From positions 1,116,001 through 1,180,000 of the forward strand of contig NZ_CP037899.1 of the NCBI RefSeq assembly GCF_007475525.1: a stretch of DNA of 64,000 bases, given 5' to 3'. This document shows, in pieces, positions 10,018-58,652 of this stretch. The translations under genes were made by a program, and so were the position numbers. The notes beneath the pieces were generated by a model, which saw nothing but the letters and a program-made list of their open reading frames with translations, had not been told where the DNA came from and searched no databases. Source of the DNA: Methylacidiphilum kamchatkense Kam1 (lineage in GTDB: Bacteria > Verrucomicrobiota > Verrucomicrobiia > Methylacidiphilales > Methylacidiphilaceae). How positions within the stretch are numbered: the stretch's first letter is position 1; each line of letters starts with the position of its first letter.

Positions 10018-10731
10018 TTACATATCATTACCAATCGATTTGGTCATGAGATGTCTACTTCTAAACCGAAAAACATTATTCCATGTTTTTTTTAAAGCTT
10101 CCTTCGTAGAAATATATCGTTTTTCTAAAAGGGTACCATGCCGAATAGCCCGAAGAATGCCTTGGACAGAAAAATCGTCCGTTTCTACAATAGTTAGTGC
10201 CGTACCTATAACCTCTGCATCATGAGCATCACTGGCGGAAATCATTGGAAGTCTTCTTTCTTTTGCATAAGCCATAGCTTTTTGATTGCATCTTTTAAAA
10301 GTGACAGCCGCATTAAAAACTTCTATCCCATCTAAGGGAAGTTTGTCCAGAAACCGTTTTCGAATTCCGGCACGAAAATAATCAAAGGGATGAGGAGCGA
10401 TGGCGAGTCCTCCCATGGAATGAATAAGAGAGACGGCATCAATTGCAGGAATTCCTTTTAAGTCTGGTAGCTTTATCCCAAGAGCTAGAAGATGGCCTTC
10501 TTTGGTGGTAATTTCTTGTCCGGGAAGAATCAGAAAATTATCCACAGGTAACCCGTCTTTTCTGATTAATCCGATTTGTTCCAAATAATCAATTCCAGCA
10601 GACGTGTTATGATCGGTGAGAGCAAATCCGTTCAATCCCTTTTCCTTTGCAACGCGGACCAATGCTTCCGGTTCTGATACTCCATCTGCAGAAAATCTAG
10701 AGTGACAATGGAAATCAATTCGGTATTGCAT
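10018..10731 (-). CDS. PHP-domain metal-dependent phosphoesterase
   Basis: 237 aa with the PHP motifs in order: DFHCHSRFSADG (metal-binding His8 and His10), ALTDHNT, GQEITTKEGHLLALG, IAPHPFDYFR and SASDAHDA. Single-domain PHP proteins of this size hydrolyse small phosphoesters such as nucleoside 3',5'-bisphosphates or act on RNA ends; the substrate here cannot be told. It lies just upstream of purH on the same strand and back to back with ubiE. Confidence 0.85.
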   Translation of the reverse strand: MQYRIDFHCHSRFSADGVSEPEALVRVAKEKGLNGFALTDHNTSAGIDYLEQIGLIRKDGLPVDNFLILPGQEITTKEGHLLALGIKLPDLKGIPAIDAVSLIHSMGGLAIAPHPFDYFRAGIRKRFLDKLPLDGIEVFNAAVTFKRCNQKAMAYAKERRLPMISASDAHDAEVIGTALTIVETDDFSVQGILRAIRHGTLLEKRYISTKEALKKTWNNVFRFRSRHLMTKSIGNDM

Positions 10732-10830
10732 ATTTATACTACCATAACATATTTATTTTGTTCTGTTTACTTTTTTCTACTCAACTCTATCATCTATCCT
10801 GTCGCTACTATTTTAAAAAGCGGATAGACA

Positions 10831-11541
10831 ATGACCCAACAAAACTCCATAGGCAAACTATTTGACAAGGTGGCCAGTAGATACGACTTTCTAAACCACT
10901 TTTTGAGTCTTGGGATCGATGTATTGTGGAGAAAAAGATTAGCCAGAAAAGTAGCAGACCTAAAGCCTTCCTCTTTACTGGATTTGGCAACAGGAAGCGG
11001 AGATCTTCTCTTGGCTATCCTTAAAAATTCTCCCACTATCCTTCGATATTATGGGGTGGATATTTCTCAAGAAATGATCGCTCTTGCTAAAGAGAAAGGG
11101 CTTGACAATCTTCTGATAGCTGATGCCTCTAGTCTGCCTTTTGTCGAATCGAGTTTTGATGTTGTTACTGTTGCCTTTGGACTCAGAAACTTCCAAGATC
11201 GAATGCTTGCATTAAGAGAAATTTTAAGAGTATTACGGCCTGGTGGTACCCTCTACGTGTTGGAGTTTTCTATGCCTAAGACTATTCTTAGACCTTTTTA
11301 TTTGTTCTATCTGCAGAAGCTCATGCCACTGCTTGCCTCTTTTGTAGGCGCTCCAAAAGATGCTTATATTTACTTGGCACAATCGATTTTAGACTTTCCC
11401 CAACCCAAAGAGCTTGTAGGTCTTTTTCAGAACGCTGGATTCGACTGCTGCGGCTTTGTGCCAATGACTTTTGGCATTGTTACGATTCATTGGGGAAAAA
11501 AACCAGAAACTGCTCTTAATAAATCAGCTTTAAAAACTTGA
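10831..11541 (+). CDS. ubiE: Demethylmenaquinone/ubiquinone C-methyltransferase UbiE/MenG
   Basis: 236 aa. The FDKVASRYDFLNHFLSLG start and the SAM-binding motif LLDLATGSGDLLLAI are typical of UbiE/MenG, as are VTVAFGLRNF and RVLRPGGTLYVLEFS. It carries out the C-methylation step of quinone biosynthesis; whether on menaquinone or ubiquinone precursors depends on the organism. The start ATG at 10831 fits the family N-terminus. Its 3' end overlaps the convergent DciA-like gene by 26 bp. Confidence 0.93.
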   Translation: MTQQNSIGKLFDKVASRYDFLNHFLSLGIDVLWRKRLARKVADLKPSSLLDLATGSGDLLLAILKNSPTILRYYGVDISQEMIALAKEKGLDNLLIADASSLPFVESSFDVVTVAFGLRNFQDRMLALREILRVLRPGGTLYVLEFSMPKTILRPFYLFYLQKLMPLLASFVGAPKDAYIYLAQSILDFPQPKELVGLFQNAGFDCCGFVPMTFGIVTIHWGKKPETALNKSALKT

Positions 11542-12061
11542 TCGGCTTGCCTGTAAGCGAAGCTATTTTTTCTATGATCTTTGGATTCTTGGTAATTTCA
11601 TAGGATATCACACTAGAAACACAACGAAAAAAGGCGGTTTGTTTCTCTTCATTAATCGAGATAAGCACGCTGTAGGTAGCCAGGTGAGTTCCAACGGCTT
11701 CTTTCCATATAGCTTGCAGGGCTGCTGGATGATGCAGCCTTTTCCTTTCTAATCTTTTGAAAAGACTTTCAAAAAGACTTTCTCTATACCACTTCGCTCG
11801 CAATACGGGATTATTTGGAAGATTGGAAAGTTGGTCACCGTTTCCATCTTTGCCAGATGCCTCGAGAAATCGGTCATAAAGTAGAGTTGGAGCTTTTCTA
11901 GAAAAATACAGTGTTAAGGTTTCTTTAGAAAAAGAATTGGTTTGTTGATGGGCTTTTAAAAATGAAGAAAGAGTATCAAACCAACAATCGTTATAGTTCT
12001 TACTATCGATCCGTAATACTGGAAATCCGGCCTCTGTCCCAGAAAGGATCTTTTGTTTCAT
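11516..12061 (-). CDS. DUF721/DciA-like protein
   Basis: 181 aa. The C-terminal half (ALQAIWKEAVGTHLATYS, then FFRCVSSVISYEI, ending KPIKFLKLIY) matches the DUF721/DciA fold, a KH-like domain that in many bacteria loads or assists the replicative helicase DnaB. The first ~95 residues are not recognised and lack hydrophobic segments. It overlaps ubiE tail to tail. Assignment rests on the C-terminal pattern, so the helicase role is an inference from the family. Confidence 0.6.
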   Translation of the reverse strand: MKQKILSGTEAGFPVLRIDSKNYNDCWFDTLSSFLKAHQQTNSFSKETLTLYFSRKAPTLLYDRFLEASGKDGNGDQLSNLPNNPVLRAKWYRESLFESLFKRLERKRLHHPAALQAIWKEAVGTHLATYSVLISINEEKQTAFFRCVSSVISYEITKNPKIIEKIASLTGKPIKFLKLIY

Positions 12062-12121
12062 CTTGAGAATTTTTTTTTTGGACTGATCTTTATCTCAGCC
12101 TATCCAATCCCTTGTTTTAGG

Positions 12122-12589
12122 TTAGAGTACTTGACCATTTTCAATCGTTCTCTTACTTAATAATTGCTTACAAGCACTTTTCATTCTCCCCAATACATAA
12201 TAAACAGTCTGACTCCTCACCCTAAAGAGCTCTCCGCCAACAATTTTGCTTATAAAGGTACTTGGTATATTGACGATTTGTTGGGGTAGGGAACCACTTA
12301 AGCCCTGACAAAGAATGGAAGTCATGGCTTTTGTCAGAGTTTGAACATGAGGGCCTAAATGCATCCGAAAATAGACCTTGCCTTCTTCATCGGAAAGAAG
12401 ATAGACACCGACCATATCGGTGCATTCTTCATCTTTTCGGACATCAGTAAGAACATAGGACTCACCTTCTTTTGGAGAAAATTGAGGAGCAGCTTCGCTG
12501 TAAGCAATTAGCATTTCTCGTCTTTCTTCTTCTCCTAAAACTTCGAAAGTAGAAATAATGTCTTTTAAAGCTTTTGGTAACTCTTCCAT
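12122..12589 (-). CDS. sufE: SufE-like sulfur-acceptor protein
   Basis: 155 aa with the SufE layout: N-terminal helix ending in EERREMLIAY, a Cys at position 56 (EECTDMVGVYLL) corresponding to the sulfur-accepting cysteine, a central LGPHVQTLTKAMTSIL, and a C-terminal helix pair. SufE takes persulfide from the cysteine desulfurase SufS for Fe-S cluster assembly. The neighbour upstream on the same strand is a two-domain sulfurtransferase, so both handle persulfide. No sufS or sufBCD is present in the window. Confidence 0.75.
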   Translation of the reverse strand: MEELPKALKDIISTFEVLGEEERREMLIAYSEAAPQFSPKEGESYVLTDVRKDEECTDMVGVYLLSDEEGKVYFRMHLGPHVQTLTKAMTSILCQGLSGSLPQQIVNIPSTFISKIVGGELFRVRSQTVYYVLGRMKSACKQLLSKRTIENGQVL

Positions 12590-28221: not shown

Positions 28222-28974
28222 CTATTTTATCGATCTATACCACGCATACCATTCTACTTTAAATTTCTCGTCGATTTTCCAAACATTTTCAAATTGCCAC
28301 CGCACTTTTCCTTTTTCTAATTGATATCCTTTTGGATATATAGAGAAAAAGCTCCCATAGATCCATTGCAGATAGAAAGGAGAATTTGTTTTACCAATCG
28401 CTGGGATTGACCGAGCGATCCCTGAAAGATCAAAAGTAAATGAAATTTCATTGAAGGGGGGAGAACCACTACCAGTAACTCCAACATTGTTTATATACTC
28501 GAAAGAATCTTTAGTAGCAGAGGTAGCCAATACAAGAAACTCAGCCTGCAAAAGCGTTTTCACTGTTTTATTTTTAGGCCAATAGATATCTGCTGCCCAA
28601 AAATATTGACAGTTGTGTTTTGTTTTTACATAGAACCAATTCCACTGGCTGATCTGTTTTCGAATGATAGGAACAGTGACTCCGTCAACCCAATATTTCA
28701 TCCACAAAGCAGGAAATCTTGGATCCTCTTCAAAAATTGGAACATTCTTTTCCCAATGCTCATAATCATAGGTATGCACCTCGTATTGTTGAGTAAAAAT
28801 CACATGAGCTTGTAAAGTTCCAGGTTGGTTTGGACTGGGTAAAAGAATAAGTTGAGCGTAACTGTCCAATCGACTCTTGTGAAAAGATTTTTCTAAGGTC
28901 TGTTCAAAGGCTTTACAACAAAAACATAAAAAAAATAAAGAAATTAAAGATAGGATCTCCTTTTGAACAATCAT
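28222..28974 (-). CDS. Hypothetical secreted protein
   Basis: 250 aa with signal peptide (hydrophobic LSLISLFFLCFCC, then KAFEQ). The mature part is rich in Trp and Tyr with alternating strands (HTYDYEHWEKN, QISQWNWFYVKT, RWQFENVWKI), suggesting a beta-rich periplasmic or outer-membrane-associated protein. No family recognised. It is the last gene of a minus-strand series that includes the PilN/O/P/Q-like genes, separated from the next upstream gene by ~20 bp, so it probably belongs to that operon. Confidence 0.55.
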   Translation of the reverse strand: MIVQKEILSLISLFFLCFCCKAFEQTLEKSFHKSRLDSYAQLILLPSPNQPGTLQAHVIFTQQYEVHTYDYEHWEKNVPIFEEDPRFPALWMKYWVDGVTVPIIRKQISQWNWFYVKTKHNCQYFWAADIYWPKNKTVKTLLQAEFLVLATSATKDSFEYINNVGVTGSGSPPFNEISFTFDLSGIARSIPAIGKTNSPFYLQWIYGSFFSIYPKGYQLEKGKVRWQFENVWKIDEKFKVEWYAWYRSIK

Positions 28975-28996: not shown

Positions 28997-29644
28997 TTAC
29001 GATTTTCTTCTCTGCTCTTTTGGATGATTCATTTTTATTTTAAGTGTTTTAAGCTTTTTGAGTTCTTGCTTTGATTTCACTGCCAAAGGCCCTTTTGATC
29101 TGTTTGATTTAATGCTGTGTGAAAGGCCATGAGCGGTTGTATGCAATTTAGCTTTAAAGACTCCATTGTTTTCAACTGATTTAAGATCATTCACTCTTCG
29201 ATTCTTTTTCTGAGTATAAAGAGAAGGCAAAGAATTTTTTATTCCACTTTCTTCTCTTTTAACTTCAAAGATCTTCTCTTTGGTTAGAAGCTTGTACCCA
29301 TTAGCCTGTGAGGCTGTTTTAGCCATTAAAATAGGATCGGTAGCATAAAAAACTGCACTCACTCTGCCTTCTACTGATTTTTTGGGGATGTAATTGCATT
29401 TTGCTCGTTGAGCCATAGCCACAAGAAAATCGTTTAGAGACATATCAAAAATCACGTATGGTTTATCATCATCAAGAGAATTATGTTGCAGCATTTCCTC
29501 TCCAGAGGTTAAATCTCTTTTTTTAAATCCAATATCGATATCCAAAGCGTTAGAAGAAAATGCTGATTCTTGAGGCTCTTGAGCAAGACAAAAGGAAAGA
29601 TAAAAATAAGAAATCACAAAAATCTTAAGACTAGCTCTTTTCAT
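28997..29644 (-). CDS. Secretin N0/STN-domain-like protein lacking the secretin pore (PilQ-N-like)
   Basis: 215 aa with signal peptide (FVISYFYLSFCLAQ). Residues ~60-125 (KPYVIFDMSLNDFLVAMAQR, VEGRVSAVFY, ANGYKLLTKEKIFEV) resemble the N0/STN domain found at the start of PilQ/GspD secretins. The rest is basic and Ser/Lys-rich, and no secretin pore domain follows. It is fourth in the order PilN-, PilO-, PilP-like then this gene, which matches canonical pilNOPQ. A role as a periplasmic connector for an outer-membrane channel is an inference. Confidence 0.5.
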   Translation of the reverse strand: MKRASLKIFVISYFYLSFCLAQEPQESAFSSNALDIDIGFKKRDLTSGEEMLQHNSLDDDKPYVIFDMSLNDFLVAMAQRAKCNYIPKKSVEGRVSAVFYATDPILMAKTASQANGYKLLTKEKIFEVKREESGIKNSLPSLYTQKKNRRVNDLKSVENNGVFKAKLHTTAHGLSHSIKSNRSKGPLAVKSKQELKKLKTLKIKMNHPKEQRRKS

Positions 29645-29679
29645 GTTGTTGGAAAATATTAGAAAATGCGTATTAGGGG

Positions 29680-30339
29680 TTATCTTTTCAAAGAATTATA
29701 AATCTGGATCTCTCCATAGACACCCTGTTCATCCATCACAACCCTTGGCCAGGGGATTCTTACTTCTACTCCAGCTTGATCTTGCAGAACAAGAACGTTG
29801 CTTTCGATAGAAAGAACTTTAATTTTTTGCAATTGATTTAAGGTTCTTAACAAAAACACATCTCCAGGATGAAACACTCGGTTTCCAATGATAACTTCCT
29901 TGCCTTCTTGAAATCCTCGAATCGGGATACTTGAAGCAAGATCAGCTAGGGAATCCTTTGGATTATCCGCTGATGATCCAGTTAAAAATGTTCCTTGAAC
30001 AGGAAGGCCAAAAGCATCAATGCCATTCGCAGGGAGAGGAACAGGTTTTCTGGTAGTCAAAGAAGAAATATTTGAATGGGAAATTGCATCACAGAATTGA
30101 TCGTATTGCGAGTCATAGGTCTCGATGGGGTCCGTTTTCCTTATTAGCATTTTTCCTTCATCCAGTGTCTTCACTAATAAGAGAATAAAAGCGCCTAAAG
30201 GCATTAAAAATATTAAGGGATGGGCTGATAAAAATCTCCAAATAGGCAGTGGCAATTTAGGAATTAGGGAATGTGGGTCAGTGTGCTCTTGATTATTTTT
30301 TAAGAGAAGGAAAAGGTGAAAGAAGCTGAATTTTCTCAT
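29680..30339 (-). CDS. PilP-like inner-membrane/periplasmic protein
   Basis: 219 aa, single membrane helix at ~residues 40-60 (LIFLMPLGAFILLLVKTL). A linker follows with Pro-rich parts, then a small C-terminal beta domain (IIGNRVFHPGDVFLLRTL, KIKVLSIESNVLVLQD, EVRIPWPRVV) that resembles the beta-sandwich of PilP/GspC-like lipoproteins. It starts 47 bp inside the upstream PilO-like gene. Family assignment rests on layout plus gene order, not on a diagnostic motif. Confidence 0.45.
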   Translation of the reverse strand: MRKFSFFHLFLLLKNNQEHTDPHSLIPKLPLPIWRFLSAHPLIFLMPLGAFILLLVKTLDEGKMLIRKTDPIETYDSQYDQFCDAISHSNISSLTTRKPVPLPANGIDAFGLPVQGTFLTGSSADNPKDSLADLASSIPIRGFQEGKEVIIGNRVFHPGDVFLLRTLNQLQKIKVLSIESNVLVLQDQAGVEVRIPWPRVVMDEQGVYGEIQIYNSLKR

Positions 30340-30868
30340 TGGTTTTCTCCATGGGTTTTAATGGATTCATTTTTGATGGCGATTGTTCAAAACCATTGCG
30401 TTTGTAAATAAACTCACAGTTTAGAGCTCCAGCATTCTGATTAATAGAAGGAGGAGTCAGTAAAATCGATACTGGAGTAAAATCAGGAAGTTCTTCGGAG
30501 CAAAATTCTAAAAACTGAACTACAGCTCCAGATCTTGCTTCGGCTCTAATGCCAATCCCCATAGGGTCATGAAAAATGCTTAATAGCCTAAAATCGTTTC
30601 TTTGCCTTTGAAAACGAGACAGAACATCAATCAATATGGCTTCTGTGCTCTGCTTTATCCTTGATTCATACCATATTTTAGAATCTCTAGCCTTTTTTTC
30701 TTGTGTAAAAACTCTATGAATATAATTTTCTGCTTGTTCATATTCCTTTTCCATCCTCAGCTTTTTGCGTGCTTCCTGTTGAACATAGCCAATGAGCACC
30801 TCAGAAAAAACCCAAGCCAGACCCAATAGACAAATAAAAAAAGAAACTCTCAGAATAAAATTTTTCAT
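30293..30868 (-). CDS. PilO-like inner-membrane protein
   Basis: 191 aa: N-terminal membrane helix (residues ~4-25), coiled-coil segment (~30-75), then a ferredoxin-like periplasmic domain (GIGIRAEARSGAVVQFLEF, LPDFTPVSILLTPP, LNCEFIYKR). This is the PilO/GspM topology. Its start overlaps the stop of the PilN-like gene by 4 bp (ATGA), indicating translational coupling. PilO proteins pair with PilN and bind PilP in type IV pilus machines. Confidence 0.5.
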   Translation of the reverse strand: MKNFILRVSFFICLLGLAWVFSEVLIGYVQQEARKKLRMEKEYEQAENYIHRVFTQEKKARDSKIWYESRIKQSTEAILIDVLSRFQRQRNDFRLLSIFHDPMGIGIRAEARSGAVVQFLEFCSEELPDFTPVSILLTPPSINQNAGALNCEFIYKRNGFEQSPSKMNPLKPMEKTNEKIQLLSPFPSLKK

Positions 30869-31494
30869 CGCAGATCTTCTTTAGAAAGAAAGCAAGTCAA
30901 AGTCGCTCTTATCTGCTCCTTTTTTTCTTTGGGCAGTTCAATATTGGAAAATTCGAATTTTATTTTTTTCCCCACACTCTTTTCAAAAGCCAGAGAAACA
31001 AGAGCACAGTAAAAACCTAAAGTTTCCATGCTATTTGGATCTTCAGAACGAACCTTCAGGGTGCACTTAATCCTACGAGAAGTATCAAGCAATTCCATGT
31101 GGAATTGCTCAATCTGTAGTCCAGGAACTGATGAAAAACAGACAGCAGCAACAAGATTAGCCGGATAGATTTCGTTAATAATCTCTTTGTGAAATCTATC
31201 ATTCCACAACAGCAGCTTTTCAATGTTTTCTTTTTCATGTAGAATTTTTTCTTCTTCTTTGAAATTGGCCTTCCAAGGATAATTTTTCAAAATCGTAAAG
31301 AGTTGAATAATTCGATACAAAAAGATCGTTGATAAAATGATTAGAAATAAGTAACCGACAATATTTTCGATTCCTTTCCATCTATTATTTTTAGTTCCGA
31401 TCGAAGTCGTTTTGTTCTGCTCTCTTCCCATGGAAAGCAAAAAATTATTTTCTTTCGTTTTATTCTCCCTATCTATCGGTTTCATTTGATTCAT
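30865..31494 (-). CDS. PilN-like inner-membrane protein
   Basis: 209 aa: basic cytoplasmic N-terminus (~45 residues), one membrane helix (IVGYLFLIILSTIFLYRII), coiled coil, then a periplasmic ferredoxin-like domain (LQIEQFHMELLDTSRRIKCTL, then a helix and the strand KIKFEFSNIEL). This is the PilN/GspL-C topology. It is first in the four-gene PilN-O-P-Q-like series. The PilM-binding motif expected at the N-terminus of true PilN is not visible, and no PilM is encoded here. Confidence 0.5.
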   Translation of the reverse strand: MNQMKPIDRENKTKENNFLLSMGREQNKTTSIGTKNNRWKGIENIVGYLFLIILSTIFLYRIIQLFTILKNYPWKANFKEEEKILHEKENIEKLLLWNDRFHKEIINEIYPANLVAAVCFSSVPGLQIEQFHMELLDTSRRIKCTLKVRSEDPNSMETLGFYCALVSLAFEKSVGKKIKFEFSNIELPKEKKEQIRATLTCFLSKEDLR

Positions 31495-31524: not shown

Positions 31525-31923
31525 TCAATTTTTGGGTAAATAGAGGTTGCTTAAGGTAAGCCAATATTTTCCTTCTGAATAAAAAACGACACCGGTTGCT
31601 GGAACAAAAGAGGATTTGGAATTTAACCGAATAGCCTCCACAATATATCTCGGAGGCAACGTTTGAGGAAAAACTCTTTTAGCTCGAACTTCAGTTCCTA
31701 TCGGTAAAAGCATTCTATTTGCATAGACGAGCGGAGTTGAAAGCGTAAAACCTTCTTTCGATGGAACAACCCTTAATTGGGAGGCAGAAAGCAGATAATC
31801 AATCTTTTGGCATTCTATGTTTTGAGGAAAACTCGGCAAATAAGAAGACTGAATAGAGCATCCTGTATAAAAGAGATTAAAGAAAAAAAATAAACTCAAT
31901 CGGTTGATTGTTATTTTTCCCAT
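31525..31923 (-). CDS. Small lipoprotein-like secreted protein
   Basis: 132 aa from ATG 31923, chosen over TTG 31947 because the signal peptide then begins properly (MGKITINRLSLFFFFNLF) and ends at a lipobox-like FYTGC. The mature part has a beta-rich segment (TPLVYANRMLLPIGTEVRA, RYIVEAIRLNSKSSFVPATG) that recalls VirB10/TrbI-type periplasmic strands. It is just upstream of the PilN-like gene on the same strand and is perhaps the first gene of that operon. GACCTAATAA lies seven bases before the start (see findings). Confidence 0.5.
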   Translation of the reverse strand: MGKITINRLSLFFFFNLFYTGCSIQSSYLPSFPQNIECQKIDYLLSASQLRVVPSKEGFTLSTPLVYANRMLLPIGTEVRAKRVFPQTLPPRYIVEAIRLNSKSSFVPATGVVFYSEGKYWLTLSNLYLPKN

Positions 31924-31990
31924 CTCTTTTTTATTAGGTCCGTTCAAATTGAAAAATGGCCGACCTATTTAATAAAAAGAAAATTTTATA

Positions 31991-32588: not shown

Positions 32589-33491
32589 CTACTCATTTTG
32601 TTCATCGTTTGGTGAGTAATTGCCAACCCTTACAGAAAGAATTTGATCTATAATTTTTATTTCCCGAATCCGATTTTCTTTTGTTTTTGCTAATTCTTCA
32701 TTGGAAAGCCTATATAAATCCGAAACCTGGTTTAAACGACTCTCCGAACGCATCTTATGAATGTCTTTAAGGAGCTGATCCCGACTTTTTTCCATTTCAA
32801 AACAAAGATTTTGTAATTCTTCAACTTTTTTTTCAGCTTTGTCTTTACTTTCGGAATACTCTAAAAGGCAGCTTTTAAGATTCTGTATTTCATTTTGCTG
32901 TTCTAGAATAAAATTTTCAACGACTTTTAATTCTTCATGCCATGGACACCATGTTTCCAAATTATCCTTGGAAATGAACTGTAATGCTTCTTTAGGAATA
33001 ATATAAATGTTTCTTGCAATAGATCTTATGGATCTGTGTGAGACTCCAGGAATTACTAAAAAACCAGGATCATTTTTTAAGATGACCAATAGTTCAAAAA
33101 AGGAATGTATACTTTCTTTCTTTTCTTCTTCTACTGCTACGGCTTTTTCTGACGCTAGACGTTGTGCCCATGCAAGGCCGATATAAATGATGTAAAAAAA
33201 GAGGGAAGCATTTGATAAAATATATCCGAAGGATTCTAAAGAATAGGAGAAGGAGTAATAAGGAAAAAGAAAACTAAATTTATTAAGACTTGCAAACAGG
33301 GCTATCCAAAGGAAAGCAAGAAGGTTCTTATTTTTAAAATTTTGTTTAAGAAGGCTATGAAGCCAAATAGGCAAAAAAATAAATGTGTAAGAAAAATTCC
33401 ATGGAAAATGCAATGGAAAGGGATTTAATGGAGGAGTTCTGAAAAAATAAAGGAGCAATCCATAAATCAATAAAGGATAAATCGTATCCAT
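32589..33491 (-). CDS. Membrane protein with C-terminal coiled coil
   Basis: 300 aa, unrecognised. Residues ~5-115 contain four hydrophobic segments, among them LLIYGLLLYFF and FIFLPIWLHSLL. The C-terminal ~180 residues are cytoplasmic, with long heptads rich in Glu/Lys (residues ~200-265) ending EIKIIDQILSVR. Islands of this type often use such proteins as scaffold or anchoring factors. No promoter or partner is evident. Confidence 0.5.
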   Translation of the reverse strand: MDTIYPLLIYGLLLYFFRTPPLNPFPLHFPWNFSYTFIFLPIWLHSLLKQNFKNKNLLAFLWIALFASLNKFSFLFPYYSFSYSLESFGYILSNASLFFYIIYIGLAWAQRLASEKAVAVEEEKKESIHSFFELLVILKNDPGFLVIPGVSHRSIRSIARNIYIIPKEALQFISKDNLETWCPWHEELKVVENFILEQQNEIQNLKSCLLEYSESKDKAEKKVEELQNLCFEMEKSRDQLLKDIHKMRSESRLNQVSDLYRLSNEELAKTKENRIREIKIIDQILSVRVGNYSPNDEQNE

Positions 33492-33777: not shown

Positions 33778-34747
33778 TTTTTTGAACTTTCCCTCCCTTT
33801 TTCTATTCCTACTAATAATCTTTTGAGGGAAAGTTTTTGGCGGCAATTAAATGCTTCTATTCCTAAAAAATACCGATCGTTTTGTATTTCCCATACAGGA
33901 TAAAAATACTTTAAAACTAAAACAGATTTAATGTCATTGGGCGCGTTTTCAATGATTTGAATCCACTCTTTTTTAATTCTTCATTATCCGATGATTGTTG
34001 CATACCGTTTGGTCCAGCAATAATGGTATGCAATTGATCACCCTCATTATTGATTGGAGCATCCAAACTAACTATTTGCGGATTATTAATATTGTTTTCT
34101 GGATCTTCTAAATTGAGGTTCTTTTGAGAAGAATTTTTCTTTTTTAGATAAGAACTAATCTGAACTGTTTTAGATTTTAATGCTTCGGCGGCAATTTCAT
34201 TTTTGATCCAGTATAAGGCATAGTTTGGAAATGGATTTTGTGAAGAAGGATTGTACCTTTCTAAGGCTCTGTAAAAGCCAATAATTCCATCACTAAAGAC
34301 CGCCTCTTTAATATTTAGGTTGTTCGTTTTGACAACCCTGTGGATCAACTCAATACCGTTTATAATCAATGGTTCCGTTGCTTCAGCTAATGTTTGCCTT
34401 TTTCTTTTCCATATTATAGCTTCTTTCCCATTGTCTTTTTCAGCTTCCTCTCTGAGGTTGTTCCACCATATGATGTTCAATCGTAATTTATCTAGCACTG
34501 CTAATACTTTTTCGTCCATGTAGTTATGTTTGGATCGAAGTAAAGAAATTAAAAAAACTACTTCTTTGGCATTAATTCTCTTTTGTTTAGAAGGTTCATG
34601 AAGATGAATAATCTTCTCAATAAGAATTTTCTTTATAGATGGAATCTGAAGTAAAGATAGTTTTTCTTCATGCAAAGCCATTTGGAATTTTTTGATCGAT
34701 TCTCTCCAATCTATTTCCTTTTTGACCCATTGTGCTTTATTTTTCAT
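33771..34747 (-). CDS. Sigma-70-like factor, frameshifted before region 4
   Basis: The open frame 34747-33917 (276 aa) contains region 2 (EAVFSDGIIGFYRALERYNP, then FPNYALYWIKNEIAAEALKS). A region-3-like IVSLDAPINNEGDQLHTII follows, then an out-of-frame tail. With one extra A in the run of six at 33969-33974 (T's on the plus strand) the frame continues EWIQIIENAPNDIKSVLVLKY and ends at 33771, giving a region-4-like end. The N-terminal ~130 residues are unusual for sigma factors. It overlaps the upstream 385-aa gene by 11 bp. It is the second sigma-like gene of the island. Confidence 0.6.
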
Positions 34748-36160: not shown

Positions 36161-37078
36161 ATGAAAAAAAGTGTGGATCCTTTTTATTCCTTATCTAAAG
36201 AAGACTATGTTTCAAGTTTGATACTTCCAGAAGACTATATTATTACGGATATTGCCGCTATAAGAGTGGTAGAATGTGCAGTCCATGCAATGGGAGAGGG
36301 GACTGCGCTTTCTGCAGTGTTGTTGGATGGTCCTCCTGGTATTGGAAAAACATTTTTGGGTAAGGCAATTGCTAAAGCCATTGGGGCAAGACATATGTTG
36401 TTTCAATTTTTTCCTGGATGTGGAAAAGAAGAACTTCTGCGAGATAAATCCATCGATGGAACACTTGTTCCTGGTATCATTCCTCTGGCTATAACTTCTT
36501 CTATAGAAAACAAAACGGTACTCATTCTCAACGAACTAGATAAAGCCGATGTTTCCGTTGACAGTTTTTTACTCGATTTTATTAACGAATCTCAAATATT
36601 TGTCCCTCAGTTGGGAGGCGAATTGAAGGCTAACAATACTAACCTTTTAATTGTAATCACAAAAAATGATCTACGTGATGCTACGGAAGCTTTGTTAAGA
36701 AGATGTCGGGTTATCTATATGAACTGGCCAACTGTTGAAATGGAAACAAAACTCATAAGAATGCACAATCCATGGGCTTCTGAAAAATTTTGTGAAATCT
36801 TTATAAATGCAGCCAATCAATTGCGAAGACATCCTGGTGTAAAGAAAAAACCTTCCCCTCCAGAGCTTGTTCGATTGATAAGCGATTGTTGGCGCATTCG
36901 CAATCAAAATATGACTCTTTTAGAATGGAGTCAATTTTTGCTCACAGGGCTTCTTCCTTTACCTCAAGATAGAAAGTATCTAGATCAAAACCCTATGGCT
37001 TTAGCATCCGAAGTGAGAAATCTCCTTTCAGAAATTAAAAATCTTTGCAGAATCCACTTTAATGGAATACGTGAATAA
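36161..37078 (+). CDS. MoxR-type AAA+ ATPase
   Basis: 305 aa. Walker A GPPGIGKT (57-64), Walker B LILNELD (121-127), sensor-1-like LLIVITKND and arginine-finger region ALLRRCR are in order, matching MoxR/dynein-related AAA+ proteins that act as metal-insertion or complex-remodelling chaperones, usually with a VWA partner. No VWA gene is nearby. The C-terminal ~100 residues form a helical lid. It is divergent from the 72-aa gene and lies within the secretion island, so it may remodel an island protein. Confidence 0.75.
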   Translation: MKKSVDPFYSLSKEDYVSSLILPEDYIITDIAAIRVVECAVHAMGEGTALSAVLLDGPPGIGKTFLGKAIAKAIGARHMLFQFFPGCGKEELLRDKSIDGTLVPGIIPLAITSSIENKTVLILNELDKADVSVDSFLLDFINESQIFVPQLGGELKANNTNLLIVITKNDLRDATEALLRRCRVIYMNWPTVEMETKLIRMHNPWASEKFCEIFINAANQLRRHPGVKKKPSPPELVRLISDCWRIRNQNMTLLEWSQFLLTGLLPLPQDRKYLDQNPMALASEVRNLLSEIKNLCRIHFNGIRE

Positions 37079-40656: not shown

Positions 40657-42786
40657 CTATCTAGGGATAAGATGAAGCAGAAATTGAACTCTTTTTATGC
40701 TTTTCTTCCCAAACCGAGGGTGAAGTTTCACAATGGCTTCTCCATCTTTAAGTCTAGAAAAGATATAAGGAGGGTAAATCGGCTCTTTGCGAAATTGAAT
40801 TTGGAAATCTTGATGGGCGATAGGTTTTGATAAATCAAAAAGAATTTCTTGTGTTCCTCTATACAGATAACCGTCACTTCTTTCAATTTCCCCAAAAAGC
40901 CTAGAGGCATAATCATTGGTTTCCATATGAGGATTTCTTAAAAAAATGATCGTTGCTGTATTGGTTAGAATGGCTTCTATTTCAGATTTAATCATTCGGG
41001 ATTCCAACACAGCTAAAGATTGAAAAGAAATAATACAACCACATTTATATTCCCTTGCCTTATCAAAAAAACCTCTTTCTCCAGTCCAATCTCCTGTGGT
41101 TGCCACGGTAGCAAATTCATCGCAGAGATAAATTACAGGCCTTTGTTGGTTAATTGGTCTGCCATCAATTTTTAGTTGCTTTCTTGAAAGGACTGACCGA
41201 AAAAAATCGAGTTTTAATAGTATGCTTGCCACTTTTGCCGCATTTCTCCATCTAGAAAAATTCATATCCAATACAAGGATCTTTCCCTGATCAATGATAT
41301 CTGCAAAATTGAGGTTTCCTTTGGGACTTACCATTCGATCAAAAGGCGGCTGAGTCATCAGTGATGTGAGAACCGAAACAGTCATACCGATGGAACCTGA
41401 GGTTCTTTCATTGGCAATATTTAGATATTCACCTTTGAAATAAAGGTAAACTTCATCGGAATAGGGATCTTTACCATAATGATGGAGGATTTTTTCGTAG
41501 GAACTTAACCACTTTTGCAAAGGGCCATATTCAGGAGCAGGGATTTCAATATTGTTTATCAAATTAGATAAGGCCAATAATTGATCAATCTCATCAATAA
41601 GACTTAGGCAGCTTTCCCAAAGTTCAAGGTTGGGAAGAACCCCAAATTTAAAAGATTTTAAAAGTTTTTTTAGTCGATCTGTTAGTTCCGAGCACACTAG
41701 AAGAAGATTGTTGTGAAACTCATCATTTTGAGAATAAGAAAAAAAAGCAGCACGAAAAGAACGCAAACCATTAAATAAGGAAAGGATGCTAGAAGAACCA
41801 AAATGCGATTTCGAAGCTTGCTCCCCATTTAAATATTTTAAAATTTTTTCTGTTTCAATTTTCTTCCATAGTCTCTTTTCCCTCTCTTCTTCATTTTCAT
41901 TTTCCGGCGCATTTTTACTTGCAACATATATGTCTTTAATTTTCTTTTTCCATTCTTGGATCAGGTTTTCGATCCTGTTGATAAGACGATTGATTTTTTC
42001 CAATCCCTGAAAAATTTTCTCTTTATTCTCTCTTAAAACACTTTCCACTGAAGATATTTGGCTTTGGTTTGCAGGCTGTCCTCGATCCATGACAAGAAGA
42101 TTAAGAAGAGGGAAAGACATTGGTGGAGGACATTCTTCAATTATTCCCTTTTGAGCTGCCATAACAAGTTCTCGATGAAGTTGAAAAATGGAGCTAAACA
42201 ATTTCCTTCCAGCCGCATCCCAGAAAGGATCTTGGCTTGTCTTTCCATCATCAACTGCCTGTTTTAAAGTAATCATTAAATCAGCAAGCTCTGATGGAAG
42301 GGAGTCCGGATTATTAAATGGATCTAGAGCAAGATCATGCTCAGGACCAAAAAGCAAAATATCTTTTTCTCTATCATATTTCTTAGCAAGCCATAATACC
42401 ATTTCAGTCAGCTCGCATTTTCCATCCATAATAAATCCCGAGAATTTTAATTCTGCTTTTTCTTTAGGATCTCTAAGATCAGTTGCTCTAAAAAGGCTTT
42501 CCAAAACTTGAGTCAGTACAAATCGAGTTTTTCCAGCACCTGATCCTCCCAGAATGCTCATATGTGAGAATAAATCTTTAATAGTTAGAGGATTGCCAGA
42601 TTCATCCGTTAGCTCCTGAGGTTCTGTTTCAACTCGAAAATACAATTTTCCAAAATCCGAAGAACTTATTGGATGCCGTGGCCAATAATTTCCTTTGACT
42701 TTAGCAGAAAGAGATTCTCTTGGTTTTACATATTGAGGGCCGATCGATCCAACTAAAGTCTCTCTGATCTTTTGGAATAGTTTCAT
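40657..42786 (-). CDS. Type IV coupling protein (VirD4/TraD/TraG family ATPase)
   Basis: 709 aa. Walker A GGSGAGKT is at 80-87. The FIMDGKCELTEMVLWLAKKY segment corresponds to the DPKGE region. Near residue 560 lies Walker B VIYLCDEFATVA, followed by CGCIISFQSLAVLESR and a sensor region ILTNTATIIFLRNP, typical of the TraM-recognition/TraD domain. It would bring substrates to the secretion channel. There are no N-terminal membrane helices, and residues ~215-450 contain a long helical insertion, so it is an atypical soluble form. The motif GACCTATTTAAT lies just upstream of its start. Confidence 0.85.
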   Translation of the reverse strand: MKLFQKIRETLVGSIGPQYVKPRESLSAKVKGNYWPRHPISSSDFGKLYFRVETEPQELTDESGNPLTIKDLFSHMSILGGSGAGKTRFVLTQVLESLFRATDLRDPKEKAELKFSGFIMDGKCELTEMVLWLAKKYDREKDILLFGPEHDLALDPFNNPDSLPSELADLMITLKQAVDDGKTSQDPFWDAAGRKLFSSIFQLHRELVMAAQKGIIEECPPPMSFPLLNLLVMDRGQPANQSQISSVESVLRENKEKIFQGLEKINRLINRIENLIQEWKKKIKDIYVASKNAPENENEEEREKRLWKKIETEKILKYLNGEQASKSHFGSSSILSLFNGLRSFRAAFFSYSQNDEFHNNLLLVCSELTDRLKKLLKSFKFGVLPNLELWESCLSLIDEIDQLLALSNLINNIEIPAPEYGPLQKWLSSYEKILHHYGKDPYSDEVYLYFKGEYLNIANERTSGSIGMTVSVLTSLMTQPPFDRMVSPKGNLNFADIIDQGKILVLDMNFSRWRNAAKVASILLKLDFFRSVLSRKQLKIDGRPINQQRPVIYLCDEFATVATTGDWTGERGFFDKAREYKCGCIISFQSLAVLESRMIKSEIEAILTNTATIIFLRNPHMETNDYASRLFGEIERSDGYLYRGTQEILFDLSKPIAHQDFQIQFRKEPIYPPYIFSRLKDGEAIVKLHPRFGKKSIKRVQFLLHLIPR

Positions 42787-46498: not shown

Positions 46499-48556
46499 TC
46501 AACAAAATATGCTAGAATACGAGCGAGAAGAAAGTAGGAGCAAAGCTTCTTCTTTGGATATCACCCCTGTAAAAAAGAGCTCTGTAGCTTGAATCGCTAA
46601 TGGTTTAAAGCCTCTACTTTCATTATGAGCTCGTATTCTGTTAGGGCTTGCACCATTTTCAATTAAAGAAATAATTTCACTATCGAATGGAAGGAGTTCA
46701 AGAATCGGCATCCTTCCAGCCGTCCCTGTTCCTCTACATGCTTGACAACCCCTAGCTTCTGCAACGACAGGCTCTGCAACCTGACAATTGGGAAAATATT
46801 TTAAATCATCTGCCGTGGCCTTTCTTATTTTTTTGCAATAAGGGCATAATTTTGAAACGAGTCTTTGAGAAACAACCAATTTCAGAGCATAGGAAACAGC
46901 AAGCCTATCAATACCAAAACTCTGAACCATTCTTTCTATTACTCCCACTGGATCAGTTGCATGAATAGAGGAAAATACGAGATGGCCAGTTAATGCTGAA
47001 TCAATGGCAATTCGAGCACTTTCCATATCACGTATTTCCCCAATCATAATGATGTCTGGATCTTGTCGAACTATTCCTCTTAGAGCAGTAGCAAATGTAA
47101 TTCCTGCTTTTTCTCTAACCTCGATTTGCATAGCATCGGGAAAATGTTTTTCAACTGGATTCTCAACGGTAATTATTTTTTTTCTAGGGGAACTAATATG
47201 CTGTAGCATAGCATAGAGAGTAGTTGTTTTTCCACTTCCTGTCGGTCCCGTGGAGACAAACATCCCCTGTCCATTCGCTAAAAACCACAAAAGGAAGGAA
47301 TGCTCCATTGGCGGCAAATTCAAATCATCAAGGGTTGGAATTCGAGAAGAAAAAATACGAATGGCTGTATGCTCTTCCATCCCTTGGCCAATTACAATAC
47401 TATACCGTTGGTCATAACGAATCCCTTTGTATTGATAGCTACTACTTCCATCTTGAAATATTCCTTTTTGATCGGCAGCCATATTTCCAAAAAGCTTAAT
47501 TCGGTCCAATAGAATCTGATATTGAAGTCTGCTTAGGGGAGCTTGTTCATAATAATCACCGTCTATGCGAAAACGCACTCGCACATTGTGATCTTTAGGT
47601 TCAAGGGAAATATCGCTGGCCCCCATATCAATGGCACTGCTCATGATAGCATGATAAAGAGTGATTCCTGTTTCGTTAAAATGACTTAAATCTACTTGAG
47701 GCCATTCCCTTACGTGAAGAGGATCTCCTGGTAAAATTCCTTTAATTTTGTTTTCTTTTTTAACCAGAAGAAATAGTTTTTGGAAATAACCTGGTGAGCA
47801 AATCACTAGTTGGATTTTTGTTTTTAAAGCTTCGATCAATTGATCTTCTAGTTTAGAATTAAAGGCTTCTGGCGTAAGAACCCAAGAGCAGGTAGGAGAC
47901 TTCCTCCATAAAAGAGCGTTTTCAAATCCTTTGATGGCAGCACAAGCTTGCACCGCTCCTTCTGGAATAACAATTTTTGGGTCGGATCCAAAAAGAATTT
48001 GCTCAAGAATGTCAGCCACCCTTGGATACAATGATGATTCTAACCTTAACAGCTTTAACCAACTTTCCTTATCTTCTTGCTCCCAATCAGGAAAACCTTC
48101 TACCCCTCTTTCCCTTTTCAGGATAAGATTAGCTAAATCGCTAGGATGTAAGAGATAAAAAATTCTTGCTTTATCTGGAAAATTAATTGCAGCAAAAATT
48201 TCAATCTCATGTAAGCGAAAAGGATTGAGAATACCAATGACATAAAAAGGACTGTCCCATAAGATTATCGCATTGAATTCTTTTTCTAGCTTCTTGCCTA
48301 CAGGATAGAAAGCTGAAGAGGGCAGGGGATGATCTCTATCAGCAGGATATAGTGGTGGCCATCCATTACGATTGGTAAATGATTCCGACCATCTTTCCCA
48401 TGAAAAAAGGGTAGAAAATCGTAAGATCGTTTTTTCTAAATCAAAAAATGAATCAGACTTTTTCCACTCTTTAAGATTTTCTGCAACGATCAACCGTTCT
48501 TTGAGAAGAAAGTTTTCAAAATCGTTTTGAACAGAAAGACAATGTTTCGTTTGCAT
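46499..48556 (-). CDS. GspE/PilB-type secretion ATPase
   Basis: 685 aa. The N-terminal ~285 residues do not match the usual GspE-N1 domain. From ~300 the core is clear: the N2-like SSAIDMGASDISLEP, Walker A GPTGSGKTTT (437-446), Asp box ENPVEKHFPDAMQIEVREKA, Walker B DIIMIGEIRD (501-510), the His box GHLVFSSIHATDP, and the zinc site CPYC (571-574) with CQAC (604-607). These features define PilB/GspE pilus-extension ATPases rather than VirB11. It is divergent from the virB8-9-10 operon (61 bp between starts) and is probably the energiser of the island machine. Confidence 0.88.
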   Translation of the reverse strand: MQTKHCLSVQNDFENFLLKERLIVAENLKEWKKSDSFFDLEKTILRFSTLFSWERWSESFTNRNGWPPLYPADRDHPLPSSAFYPVGKKLEKEFNAIILWDSPFYVIGILNPFRLHEIEIFAAINFPDKARIFYLLHPSDLANLILKRERGVEGFPDWEQEDKESWLKLLRLESSLYPRVADILEQILFGSDPKIVIPEGAVQACAAIKGFENALLWRKSPTCSWVLTPEAFNSKLEDQLIEALKTKIQLVICSPGYFQKLFLLVKKENKIKGILPGDPLHVREWPQVDLSHFNETGITLYHAIMSSAIDMGASDISLEPKDHNVRVRFRIDGDYYEQAPLSRLQYQILLDRIKLFGNMAADQKGIFQDGSSSYQYKGIRYDQRYSIVIGQGMEEHTAIRIFSSRIPTLDDLNLPPMEHSFLLWFLANGQGMFVSTGPTGSGKTTTLYAMLQHISSPRKKIITVENPVEKHFPDAMQIEVREKAGITFATALRGIVRQDPDIIMIGEIRDMESARIAIDSALTGHLVFSSIHATDPVGVIERMVQSFGIDRLAVSYALKLVVSQRLVSKLCPYCKKIRKATADDLKYFPNCQVAEPVVAEARGCQACRGTGTAGRMPILELLPFDSEIISLIENGASPNRIRAHNESRGFKPLAIQATELFFTGVISKEEALLLLSSRSYSSIFC

Positions 48557-51601: not shown

Positions 51602-52474
51602 ATGAATATAAAATTTTATACACTTTGTGCTCTTGCTATTTTTTTTGTTATAGGTTGTGTTTCACAGAAAAAAACAGCGATGCCAATTGATCCAGCGTTA
51701 ATACAAAATAGTTACGACTATACCAAGCCATATGATGTTTATGACAGAAGCAAACCTGCGTATGTTCTGCCGGTTATAAATACTGGATGGACAAAAGCAA
51801 GGGTACATCCTAAAACAGGACAGTGGATTGGTGGACATTATGTAGGGACCGTTATTGATCCTGGACACTGGGCTACTCTTGAAGAGGCTGAGCTCTCTGG
51901 AAAACCTTATATCAGAGCGGACAATGGACAAATGATTGTTCCTAACCCTAGTGAAGACAACCCTCCAAGCAAAGATAAAGGAGTAGAAATAGATCTTGTT
52001 AATATGAAAAATAGGTTAGAAAAAATGGAGTCTACCTTGGCAGAGTCTATTCCTTCCCCAGAGTATAAAGAAGCCGCATTAATGAATGCGTTAGAAAAAA
52101 AATCACAAAGCAAAAAATATAGTTCCACCAATTTTCCTTCCATTGTAGTAGGAGATCCAGATATGGGAACTATCGCCCAACCCTCCACCTTTAACGTAAC
52201 TAAGACATCATCCTTTATTACTGTTGGGGAAGAAGAACCCACCGTTAAAAATGCAAAAAACCAAGATTTAAAAAAATATAATTCCACATTAACCACGATA
52301 GAAGTTCCTCTTGGGAAACCAGGACAGAACTTTGTCGTTAAAACTCCAAATGGTGGATTTGTGGTAGTCGAATTTTTACCTAATCGAAAAGTTAAAGTTT
52401 TATACAAAGGTCATACAGTAGAAAAGATTGCTCCACCAGATCAAGATGTTGTGGTGATTTCAGTGCCACAATAA
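51602..52474 (+). CDS. T4SS-associated lipoprotein
   Basis: 290 aa from ATG 51602. Signal peptide ends at lipobox FVIGC, so it is probably outer-membrane anchored. Residues ~55-105 contain a compact aromatic segment (GWTKARVHPKTGQWIGGHYV, DPGHWATLEEAELSGKPYI). A coiled-coil/disordered middle follows, then a C-terminal beta segment (GGFVVVEFLPNRKVKVLYKG). Its place after VirB10 suggests a VirB7/TraV-like role, although it is much larger than VirB7. Tail-to-tail overlap of 34 bp with the ParB-like gene. Confidence 0.6.
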   Translation: MNIKFYTLCALAIFFVIGCVSQKKTAMPIDPALIQNSYDYTKPYDVYDRSKPAYVLPVINTGWTKARVHPKTGQWIGGHYVGTVIDPGHWATLEEAELSGKPYIRADNGQMIVPNPSEDNPPSKDKGVEIDLVNMKNRLEKMESTLAESIPSPEYKEAALMNALEKKSQSKKYSSTNFPSIVVGDPDMGTIAQPSTFNVTKTSSFITVGEEEPTVKNAKNQDLKKYNSTLTTIEVPLGKPGQNFVVKTPNGGFVVVEFLPNRKVKVLYKGHTVEKIAPPDQDVVVISVPQ

Positions 52475-54036
52475 TTTAAAAGCCCTTTTTTCTTGATTAG
52501 AAATGAATTAGATTGATTGACAGAATTTATTTCATCAACCACTTTGGAAATATCGATGGATAAAATGTGACAAATGCTGGTAAGATGAGGAGGAAGATCG
52601 CTATAACTATTTAAAAAAAGATCAGTAGAAAGCAATAAATCTAAAAGGATTGCCTTTGACTCCAATTCATCAATATGTTCTAGCATTTTTAATGATTCTT
52701 CCATTGTGCCAAGCTTATAATTATGTCTTTGGAAGACAAACGTAGAAACCTCTCTTGGTAGAACACGTAGTGCCAAAGATAAAAAGATATTATAGGATCG
52801 ATCAATATTCTCTGTTTTGATCTTATCACATACTTTGGATATGAGAGAAGAACAGCTCAAATTCAAAAATTCTTCTTTCTTTTTTCTCTCTCTTTTGGCC
52901 TCTTCCTTTTCTTTCAATTCTTTGATTGCTTTGGCTGCAAAGGTAAACCCTTGTCTTTGTAAAAGAAAAAGCGCATCTTCCTTCTTAACAAGCCTATGGA
53001 TGGTTCCAATGGGGCTCCGTGCTAAGTATTGATGCAAAAGTGGCTTACTATCTTTTATGGTTAATTCTTCAGCTAATAAGGATGCCCATTTTCTTTCTTT
53101 TTTATCCCAATCACATGTTGAATCAACATCAATAAAAGGAGAATTAGTTTTAAGTCTAGAAGTTCCTGGAACAAAATGTCTTGTTGCTTCTTCATCAGAA
53201 AGTATTTCTCTATTTTCACTTTGAGCTTTATAGCATTGAAAACGCCAGTCAGCTTCTCTCTTTTTGGCAAAACATTCTGGATCTGTACAGACCATGTCAT
53301 CTGTTACATCCTCGAATAGATCTTTTGAATTGCCTGTTCGCTTAGTGCAATCAAGACAACTTGGAACACCTGGAATTAAATCTGGTTTTGCAATGGAGAA
53401 GTTCGCTTTTCTTAAATCAAGAAGAAAATTTTCTAATACCATCTTGGCTACTTGAGCAACAGTTAAAGATTTTGCGATCGCTTCAGATGCAACAACAGCT
53501 CGTAATTGAGGCACTGGTATTCTAGCGATATACCATCCTGCGCGTTTGGCCAATTTTCCAGATATTATCGCCTCTTTTGCAGCTTCTGGGAGAGACAATA
53601 GAGTAACCATTCGACTGATATAATCTCTACCCTTGCCTATGACTGAGGCCAATTCCACAATAGTCATCCCTCCTTGCAAAAGATTTTTGTACCCTTCAGC
53701 CTCTTCTATAGGATTAAGATTTTGTCTTTGAATATTCTCAATTATTCGTATTTGAAGAGCCATTTTTTCATCCATCGGATGAATAAAACACTCAATAAAC
53801 TCTTTGTTCAGTTTCTTACAGGCTCTCCATCTTCTTTCCCCTGAAACTATTTCATAATAACCTTCTTCTATTGGCCTGACTAAAATAGGATGAATGAGTC
53901 CGATTTTTTCTATGCTTACTGCAAGTTCTTCAATTTTGTCTTCTTGAAATTGTTTTCTAGGATTGTGTTTGGATAACTTAATTTTTTCAATTGGAATTAG
54001 GGTGATAGAAGGAGACTTTTGATTTTTCGTTTTCAT
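52441..54036 (-). CDS. ParB/KorB-like DNA-binding protein
   Basis: 531 aa. The ParB/Srx N-domain has HNPRKQF, GYYEIVSGERRWRACKKL (GERRWRA 66-72) and ENIQRQNLNPIEEAEGYKNL. A helix-turn-helix follows at 124-147 (MTIVELASVIGKGRDYISRM). Further on is a cysteine cluster (CLDCTK, then CTDPECFAKKR), as seen in plasmid ParB-type regulators. The C-terminal ~200 residues are helical and charged. It likely acts in island partitioning or global regulation; no ParA is present in the window. It begins at the stop of the sigma factor gene (TAATG). Confidence 0.85.
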   Translation of the reverse strand: MKTKNQKSPSITLIPIEKIKLSKHNPRKQFQEDKIEELAVSIEKIGLIHPILVRPIEEGYYEIVSGERRWRACKKLNKEFIECFIHPMDEKMALQIRIIENIQRQNLNPIEEAEGYKNLLQGGMTIVELASVIGKGRDYISRMVTLLSLPEAAKEAIISGKLAKRAGWYIARIPVPQLRAVVASEAIAKSLTVAQVAKMVLENFLLDLRKANFSIAKPDLIPGVPSCLDCTKRTGNSKDLFEDVTDDMVCTDPECFAKKREADWRFQCYKAQSENREILSDEEATRHFVPGTSRLKTNSPFIDVDSTCDWDKKERKWASLLAEELTIKDSKPLLHQYLARSPIGTIHRLVKKEDALFLLQRQGFTFAAKAIKELKEKEEAKRERKKKEEFLNLSCSSLISKVCDKIKTENIDRSYNIFLSLALRVLPREVSTFVFQRHNYKLGTMEESLKMLEHIDELESKAILLDLLLSTDLFLNSYSDLPPHLTSICHILSIDISKVVDEINSVNQSNSFLIKKKGLLNYCGTEITTTS

Positions 54037-54932
54037 TATTCGTAATCTAATGAAGAGTCGTTATAAAAATTGACGTTTATCATTGTAGAGGATATCCCAG
54101 TAGGTAGGGGATGTCGGATATTTAAAGTCTCAAAAAGAAAAAAATCTCTTTTAAGTTGATTTAGAGATTTCTCTAAAAGTTGTAGAACCTTCTTTCTAGA
54201 AAGTCTTAGTTTTTGAGCAATCCAGGCAGTAGGTCTTTTTTTAGCTCCTTCTCCTTCAATCCCAAAAAAGTATAATACTATTTTTCTAGAAATATCATCA
54301 AGATGAGACAACGCAATAGAAAGTTTCTGCAGCTTTTCTTCTTTTTCTTCTTCTTCAGCTGTATTGTCAGGATAAACCAAAAGGTCCATGAGAGAGGTTT
54401 CGGAGTCGTCTAAGGCAGAAAAATGAAGGCTTAAATCTCCAGAGTATACATGGAGTATTTTTTCCATGTCATGGAGAGAACATCCATATAATTCAGTAAT
54501 CTCTTCAACGGTTAGTCCTTGTTCTAAAAATCTCTCTATTTTTCTATACGATCTGTACATCGACGCTGGCCTGCGAACAGTAGCTCTACAAGCATTGGCA
54601 TAATTTCTAACCCTATTTCTCACATGATGAATGGCATAATCTAAAAATCGGATATTGAAATTCTCATTCCATTTTTCAAGAGCATCAAGAATTCCAATCC
54701 ATCCAACGTTTTCAGCATCAGGCCATTGATCAGCTAAGTTTGGTAAATAAAAACGAGCTACTTGCTGTCTTATAGGTAAAGAATTTTTAGCAAGCCATTC
54801 CAAGGCTTCCGCATCTGCAGCTTTTGCTCTAAGAATAAGTGGAAGTTCTTCCTTGAATTTCTGTTCATAGTGGGCAGAATGATGTTGCTGATTACTAACA
54901 AGATCCAAAGATTTGGCTAGTTTGGTTCTCAT
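54036..54932 (-). CDS. Sigma-70-family RNA polymerase sigma factor (island-encoded)
   Basis: 298 aa. Region 2 (ENVGWIGILDALEKWNENFN, IRFLDYAIHHVRNRVRNYAN) lies at ~74-121. A region-3-like HTH (GLTVEEITELYGCSLHDMEK) is at ~138-160. Region 4 (LSHLDDISRKIVLYFFGIEG, TAWIAQKLRLSRKKVLQLLE) is at ~208-255. Region 1.1 is absent, so it is an alternative sigma of FliA/SigF-like size. It is transcribed with the ParB-like gene and divergent from the T4SS operon, with three phased TGTAACAT repeats between them. It may direct polymerase to island promoters. Confidence 0.85.
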   Translation of the reverse strand: MRTKLAKSLDLVSNQQHHSAHYEQKFKEELPLILRAKAADAEALEWLAKNSLPIRQQVARFYLPNLADQWPDAENVGWIGILDALEKWNENFNIRFLDYAIHHVRNRVRNYANACRATVRRPASMYRSYRKIERFLEQGLTVEEITELYGCSLHDMEKILHVYSGDLSLHFSALDDSETSLMDLLVYPDNTAEEEEKEEKLQKLSIALSHLDDISRKIVLYFFGIEGEGAKKRPTAWIAQKLRLSRKKVLQLLEKSLNQLKRDFFLFETLNIRHPLPTGISSTMINVNFYNDSSLDYE

Positions 54933-56539: not shown

Positions 56540-56561
56540 ATGAAAGAAAGGGAGGACTATA

Positions 56562-57326: not shown

Positions 57327-57382
57327 CTCCAAGCTACGATTGGTTTTCTTTTTGATTTTTAAAATGGAAAAGTAACTCAGTT

Positions 57383-58171: not shown

Positions 58172-58272
58172 AAAACTACTCAATTACTTTTTATTCCTTT
58201 TGTTTTCAGCTTCTTAAAATATTTTTTTAACAAAAAGTTATATTCTTTTTTTTACATTCCTATTAAGAAAAT

Positions 58273-58617: not shown

Positions 58618-58652
58618 GGCCTATTTTCATTTAATTGAAGGGGATGGTTCAG

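Follow-up and report, generated by a model that had tools for sequence, protein, structure and literature searches.

The four consecutive genes that we call N, O, P and Z are best explained as a type IV pilus (T4P) alignment complex that was left orphaned when the pilus was lost and was probably then re-used by a type IV secretion system (T4SS). We give this reading a probability of about 0.58. The genes lie in a window of 64,000 nucleotides, the whole stretch of DNA that was analysed, and the set and its immediate neighbours are the following:

32589-33491, minus strand: gene of a membrane/coiled-coil protein, upstream of the set
31525-31947, minus strand: small lipoprotein gene, coupled, 30 bp upstream of N
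30865-31494, minus strand: N, putative PilN/GspL-like bitopic protein, 209 aa, lacking a PilM-like domain
30293-30868, minus strand: O, PilO-like bitopic protein, 191 aa
29680-30339, minus strand: P, PilP/GspC-HR-like protein, 219 aa, one TM and a C-terminal beta domain
28997-29644, minus strand: Z, secreted protein with a secretin N0 domain only, 215 aa
28222-28974, minus strand: gene of a 250 aa protein downstream of Z, a doubtful member of the set

An earlier note on this DNA had described four coupled genes in the canonical order pilN, pilO, pilP, pilQ. The open reading frames are indeed found in this arrangement: N and O overlap by 4 bp, O and P overlap by 47 bp, and a gap of 35 bp separates P from Z. 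The gene order is kept in 10-12 genomes of Methylacidiphilum and Methylacidimicrobium. As it recurs in both AT-rich and GC-rich genera, the arrangement is not due to chance. The protein identity is about 90% in the two closest relatives and 23-57% in the remaining ones, and O is conserved in 12 genomes. The lipoprotein upstream of N has a lipobox cysteine that is invariant in 11 genomes; its annotated start is TTG, but a start near 31920 fits the alignment of its relatives better. Among the loci read, the 250 aa protein is confined to Methylacidiphilum. The membrane/coiled-coil protein has a weak homolog in G020, located between the T4SS and the T4P genes of that genome.

Descent from a T4P is strongly supported for Z, moderately for P and O, and less well for N. 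Z consists of a signal peptide, an N0 domain at approximately residues 60-130 and a basic tail, with a pI of about 11. When it is compared with the N0 domains of T4P secretins, taken from the whole secretins of relatives in the order, hhalign reports 98.5% probability and 38% identity at an E-value of 4e-15 (E-values here are those of single pairwise comparisons, and no reversed-sequence control exceeded 1.4% probability). In a genome-wide search the HMM of Z matches the secretins of G022 (2.5e-20) and G014 (8.4e-20), in frames of about 500 aa; within the Methylacidiphilaceae its matches are ORFs that lack a secretin domain. Pfam gives weak GspD N0 matches in 6 of the 11 members. No N1 domain and no C-terminal pore (PF00263) follows the N0 domain and tail of Z, so that of the two domains by which a secretin is recognised the N0 domain is present and the pore domain is absent. 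Judged by its sequence, Z is a secretin-derived N0 protein and not itself a secretin. Most of its invariant residues fall within N0 and are densest at MxLNxFLxxMAQRAxxNY, a stretch that we take to cover the first helix of the domain. In Neisseria, the first-helix region of N0 is the region contacted by PilP.

Pfam and PDB sequence searches with N, O and P returned nothing useful; profile comparisons and predicted structures were more informative. P, a single-TM protein ending in a beta domain, matches the proteins in the PilP position of the relatives' T4P clusters (hhalign 83.7%, E 8e-6), and its motif DAFGLPVQG has the counterparts DSFGLLSRG in G022 and DPFGVPVHG in G020. A search for related loci found relatives of P only within the Methylacidiphilaceae; the nearest named ones are Methylacidiphilum sp. 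Yel and two species of Methylacidimicrobium, besides genomes assigned to the family. A search with the PilP-like protein of G024 found G020 and otherwise mostly low-complexity matches.

For O, the sequence indicates a single TM, a coil and a domain of alpha/beta type. It aligns over its full length with PF04350-positive verrucomicrobial PilOs (hhalign 72.8%, 173 columns). Against the diverged PilOs of the T4P clusters in G014, G020, G022 and G024 the probability is 0.1%, that is, no match, and the assignment of O therefore rests on the wider set of PilOs. The earlier note had named PF04350 for O and PF05137 for N as checks, and neither family has a match in the complete genome. PF04350 finds nothing above its cut-off there, O included, because O is too diverged for the model; most relatives in the phylum are missed as well.

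AF2 models were made for N and P from six input sequences, the alignments being built from the window and the related loci; their overall confidence is low (62.6 and 58.9, respectively), with fair values for the domains. A Foldseek search of the PDB with both models gave nothing at E<=0.001, and the hits in those lists were re-examined with VIA. The model of N has a TM, a long helix and a bb-a-bb domain, with a mean pLDDT of 62.6 overall and 70-83 in the domain. VIA gives it a Z value of 8.8 to the C-terminal domain of PulL (8a9w, 75/75 aligned, 2.0 A), with 5hl8 beside it. The Z value to PilO (2rjz) is 8.3, and ferredoxin-like rows of unrelated proteins score similarly. With moderate confidence, N thus has one TM, a coil and a predicted ferredoxin-like periplasmic domain. 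It has no PF05137 match in the Pfam search, nor has any other protein of the genome, and hhalign gives only 10% to the PilN of the T4P clusters, the shared features being the TM and a conserved Trp. The assignment of N as PilN/GspL-like is accordingly the weaker one, based on the predicted fold. For the model of P, the top row in VIA is the HR domain of GspC from the GspC-GspD complex (3oss_C, Z value 6.1, 59 aligned, 2.1 A). GspB (4wfw) is third and PilP (2IVW) is absent from the rows listed. The top row has no margin over the others, and such Z values are suggestive but not decisive.

In summary, the topologies that had been proposed for the set fit, in the case of O from the sequence. The family calls, regarded as weak one by one, have become strong for Z and moderate for P and O by profiles, and depend on the predicted fold for N; none of this evidence draws on gene order. 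Of the expected folds, the ferredoxin-like one is seen in the model of N; for P the resemblance to the GspC HR domain is less distinct.

No recognisable channel, fibre or processing part of the pilus remains. At the level of Pfam, the complete genome (G000, a chromosome of 2.20 Mb) has no secretin (PF00263). N-methyl pilins (PF07963), prepilin peptidase (PF01478) and the platform protein PilC (T2SSF, PF00482) are absent both from it and from the family relatives tested, so the genome lacks all three parts by which a type IV pilus machine was sought. The claim that no pilin, PilC or secretin pore is present therefore holds for the entire genome and not just for the window. Secretins are also absent from all family genomes tested except G009. 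The match in G009 (G009:C219:7285-7818) is the sole one in the family; it lies on a separate contig of a MAG and may be contamination.

Relatives in the same order still have the complete machinery. In G014 and G022 the T4P cluster contains, in order, a PilT-type ATPase, a large protein in the PilM-N position, PilO, PilP, the secretin, another gene, PilB, PilC and pilin-like genes. In G022 Pfam confirms the secretin, the T2SSE protein with MshEN, T2SSF and the PilT-type ATPase, while PilM-N, PilO and PilP are called from position and size. Similar clusters are carried by G024 and G020. In these two genomes one contig carries both the cluster and virB4, and about 20 kb separate the cluster from the T4SS genes; in G014 and G022 the T4P and T4SS are located on separate contigs. 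Further, the end of the G024 T4P cluster is a homolog (44%) of an AAA ATPase in the window (36161-37078). By sequence, N-O-P-Z looks like a remnant of such a complete cluster.

Descent from an alignment complex of the T4P/T2SS type is very likely. The set could also have come from a T2SS, as GspL, GspM, GspC and the N0 domain of GspD: the model of N is nearest to GspL/PulL, that of P is nearest to GspC and GspB, and the parts of the two machines share homologous folds. However, the clusters in which Z and P have their closest relatives also encode a PilT-type ATPase and, at the PilM-N position, a fused protein, and O matches PF04350 proteins. A T2SS origin is therefore improbable, and an origin from a T4P is well favoured.

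The N-O-P-Z set is under purifying selection. Its dN/dS is 0.15-0.27 between close Methylacidiphilum genomes and 0.26-0.44 in the single Methylacidimicrobium pair compared; the value for virB4, 0.064, is lower. That the set evolves faster than virB4, and that its secretin is truncated, is what one would expect of decaying leftovers without a present function. Such decay is hard to reconcile with ORFs that have stayed intact across 10-12 genomes from two genera that split deeply, with a dN/dS well below 1 and with the motifs that O, P and Z keep invariant, and we consider it highly improbable.

The set lies in an island with the genes of a VirB/VirD4-type T4SS:

36161-37078, plus strand: AAA ATPase of the island
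40657-42786, minus strand: VirD4/TraG-type coupling ATPase
46499-48556, minus strand: GspE-type ATPase of the T4SS, the single PF00437/T2SSE protein in the complete genome
48609-51573, plus strand: genes in the VirB8 and VirB9 positions and VirB10 (TrbI); a Pfam match for VirB10 only, the others by synteny
55172-62222, plus strand: gene in the VirB6 position, two VirB2/TrbC-like genes, gene in the VirB3 position, and VirB4; VirB4 clear, the rest weak or positional

VirB4, VirB10 and VirD4 are thus present, and the VirB2-like match is weak. The test for a VirB11 ATPase was negative; its place is held by the GspE-type ATPase. This ATPase scores 309/289 bits to GspE/PilB versus 68/85 bits to DotB/TraJ. 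Its full-length identity with the ATPase that lies next to the T4SS of G024 is 39%, compared with about 30-33% over stretches of 330-380 residues with the PilBs from the T4P clusters in the same relatives. Because its best full-length similarity is to this neighbour of the G024 T4SS, the island ATPase is part of the T4SS rather than of the vanished pilus, and its identification as a T4P PilB was rejected. The earlier note was thus right that a GspE/PilB-like ATPase shares the island, but it is of the GspE type and part of the secretion system. The ortholog in G024 is split over two overlapping frames (L031, about 10498-12547).

A few other features of the island were observed. It contains two sigma-70-like proteins (33917-34747 and 54036-54932) and a ParB-like protein (52441-54036); in relatives of the order, homologs of the second sigma and of ParB are found near VirB4 (G031), and the sigma is also found in G024. 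The two VirB2/TrbC-like genes are adjacent (58273-58617 and 58635-59111). After VirB4 there is a large, fast-evolving secreted protein of 825 aa without a Pfam match, from 62219 onward to 64696 (L025). In the order's T4SS islands that we read, this protein and a lipoprotein come after VirB4, except in G031, where they were not found; outside the family the large protein is about 20% identical. The protein at 56562-57326, a secreted protein of the virB operon conserved as far as G024 and G020, appears N0-like by eye; its reading as a second N0 domain was not supported, as profile comparison with the N0 domains of secretins gave no match.

The linkage between the set and the VirB-type core is conserved. 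In all seven complete or near-complete genomes, from two genera (G000, G002, G003, G004, G006, G007 and G008), Z is 29-45 kb from virB4, and the whole island is syntenic in G003 and G006. Unlinked relatives, which would speak against a shared machine, are represented by two partial cases. The draft genome G010 (L053) has N-O-P-Z and no virB4 match, perhaps because of an assembly gap. In G005, from a third genus of the family, a stand-alone N0 protein (L124, G005:C70:61740-62525) lies about 35 kb from the T4SS genes. O and P were undetected in this genome, and therefore Z may act alone or N, O and P may have diverged.

These two genomes, together with a dN/dS above that of virB4, count against a role in the T4SS. 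The two genomes would fit a T4P remnant with an unrelated job, for example as an envelope-spanning structural or signalling complex, that is in the island because the ancestral T4P cluster adjoined the T4SS and the location was inherited. In G024 and G020 the T4P cluster indeed neighbours the T4SS and yet is a separate machine. Against this, every complete genome from the two diverged genera retains the linkage, despite gain or loss of flanking genes such as 28222-28974. We regard an unrelated job as rather unlikely, though the least unlikely of the alternatives, and a function in the T4SS as somewhat better than an even bet.

The re-use of the alignment complex by the T4SS can be pictured as follows. 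The ancestor of the order would have had a complete T4P cluster near a VirB-type T4SS. The Methylacidiphilaceae would then have lost the pilins, the prepilin peptidase, PilC, the pilus ATPases, the PilM-like part and the secretin pore, and the inner-membrane alignment complex, with the N0 domain that it grips, would have been retained under selection. We infer that the four proteins form a complex, in which N and O may pair in the inner membrane through their coils and ferredoxin-like periplasmic domains, and P, anchored beside them, may bind the N0 domain of Z with its GspC-HR-like domain. PilP binds the N0 domain of PilQ (PMC3441751), and the HR domain of GspC binds the N0 domain of GspD (PMC3169554). 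Z would no longer lead into an outer-membrane pore; its variable tail, basic or coiled, may dock to the outer-membrane core of the T4SS, to peptidoglycan or to the adjacent lipoprotein. The set could then be a periplasmic collar or stator that aligns the T4SS, with the GspE-type ATPase in the place of VirB11. N0 domains are found in T4SS components of Xanthomonas (VirB7, PMC3093366) and Legionella (DotD, PMC2951367). An alignment complex serving the T4SS, with Z as adaptor, is the simplest account of the loss of the pore, the retention of N0, the P-N0 contact and these precedents. Whether the T4SS has absorbed the complex outright, with the severed N0 as adaptor to the VirB outer-membrane core in a hybrid of two envelope machines that are commonly regarded as unrelated, is an evenly balanced question.

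The set resembles PilMNOP-PilQ of type IVa pili and GspL-M-C-D of the T2SS in the order N-O-P-(Q), in topologies, in predicted folds and in having a putative P (HR) and N0 pair, whose counterparts bind each other in PilP-PilQ and GspC-GspD. It differs in that no PilM-like part, N-methyl pilins, PilC, prepilin peptidase or secretin pore was found with it, in that its Q is an N0 domain with a basic or coiled tail, and in that P has a TM instead of a lipid anchor. A clade without recognisable secretin, pilin or prepilin peptidase that keeps the PilN-O-P scaffold and the gripped N0 is a natural experiment, and the Methylacidiphilaceae test whether the function of the alignment complex is separable from pilus assembly. 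In the literature searched, we found no description of an orphan N-O-P-N0 set in a T4SS island.

Among secretion systems, Dot/Icm (T4BSS) with DotD and DotB is a T4SS that likewise has an N0 domain of the secretin type and uses a PilT/GspE-superfamily ATPase. However, the ATPase here is much nearer to GspE/PilB than to DotB or TraJ, and we know of no N-, O- or P-like proteins in Dot/Icm. VirB7 of Xanthomonas brings an N0 domain into the outer-membrane complex of a VirB-type T4SS, and here too an N0 domain is associated with such a system, as known from the genes. In VirB7 it is fused to the lipoprotein, whereas Z is secreted as a protein of its own, encoded in a PilN-O-P operon, and is a truncated T4P secretin. 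The set offers a route by which a T4SS may acquire N0 domains like those of DotD and Xanthomonas VirB7. Finally, plasmids of the IncI1/R64 type carry a T4SS and a thin type IV pilus together, and G024 and G020 likewise have both gene sets side by side. Unlike on these plasmids, the set described here is chromosomal and conserved within the family, and in the Methylacidiphilaceae the pilus is gone.
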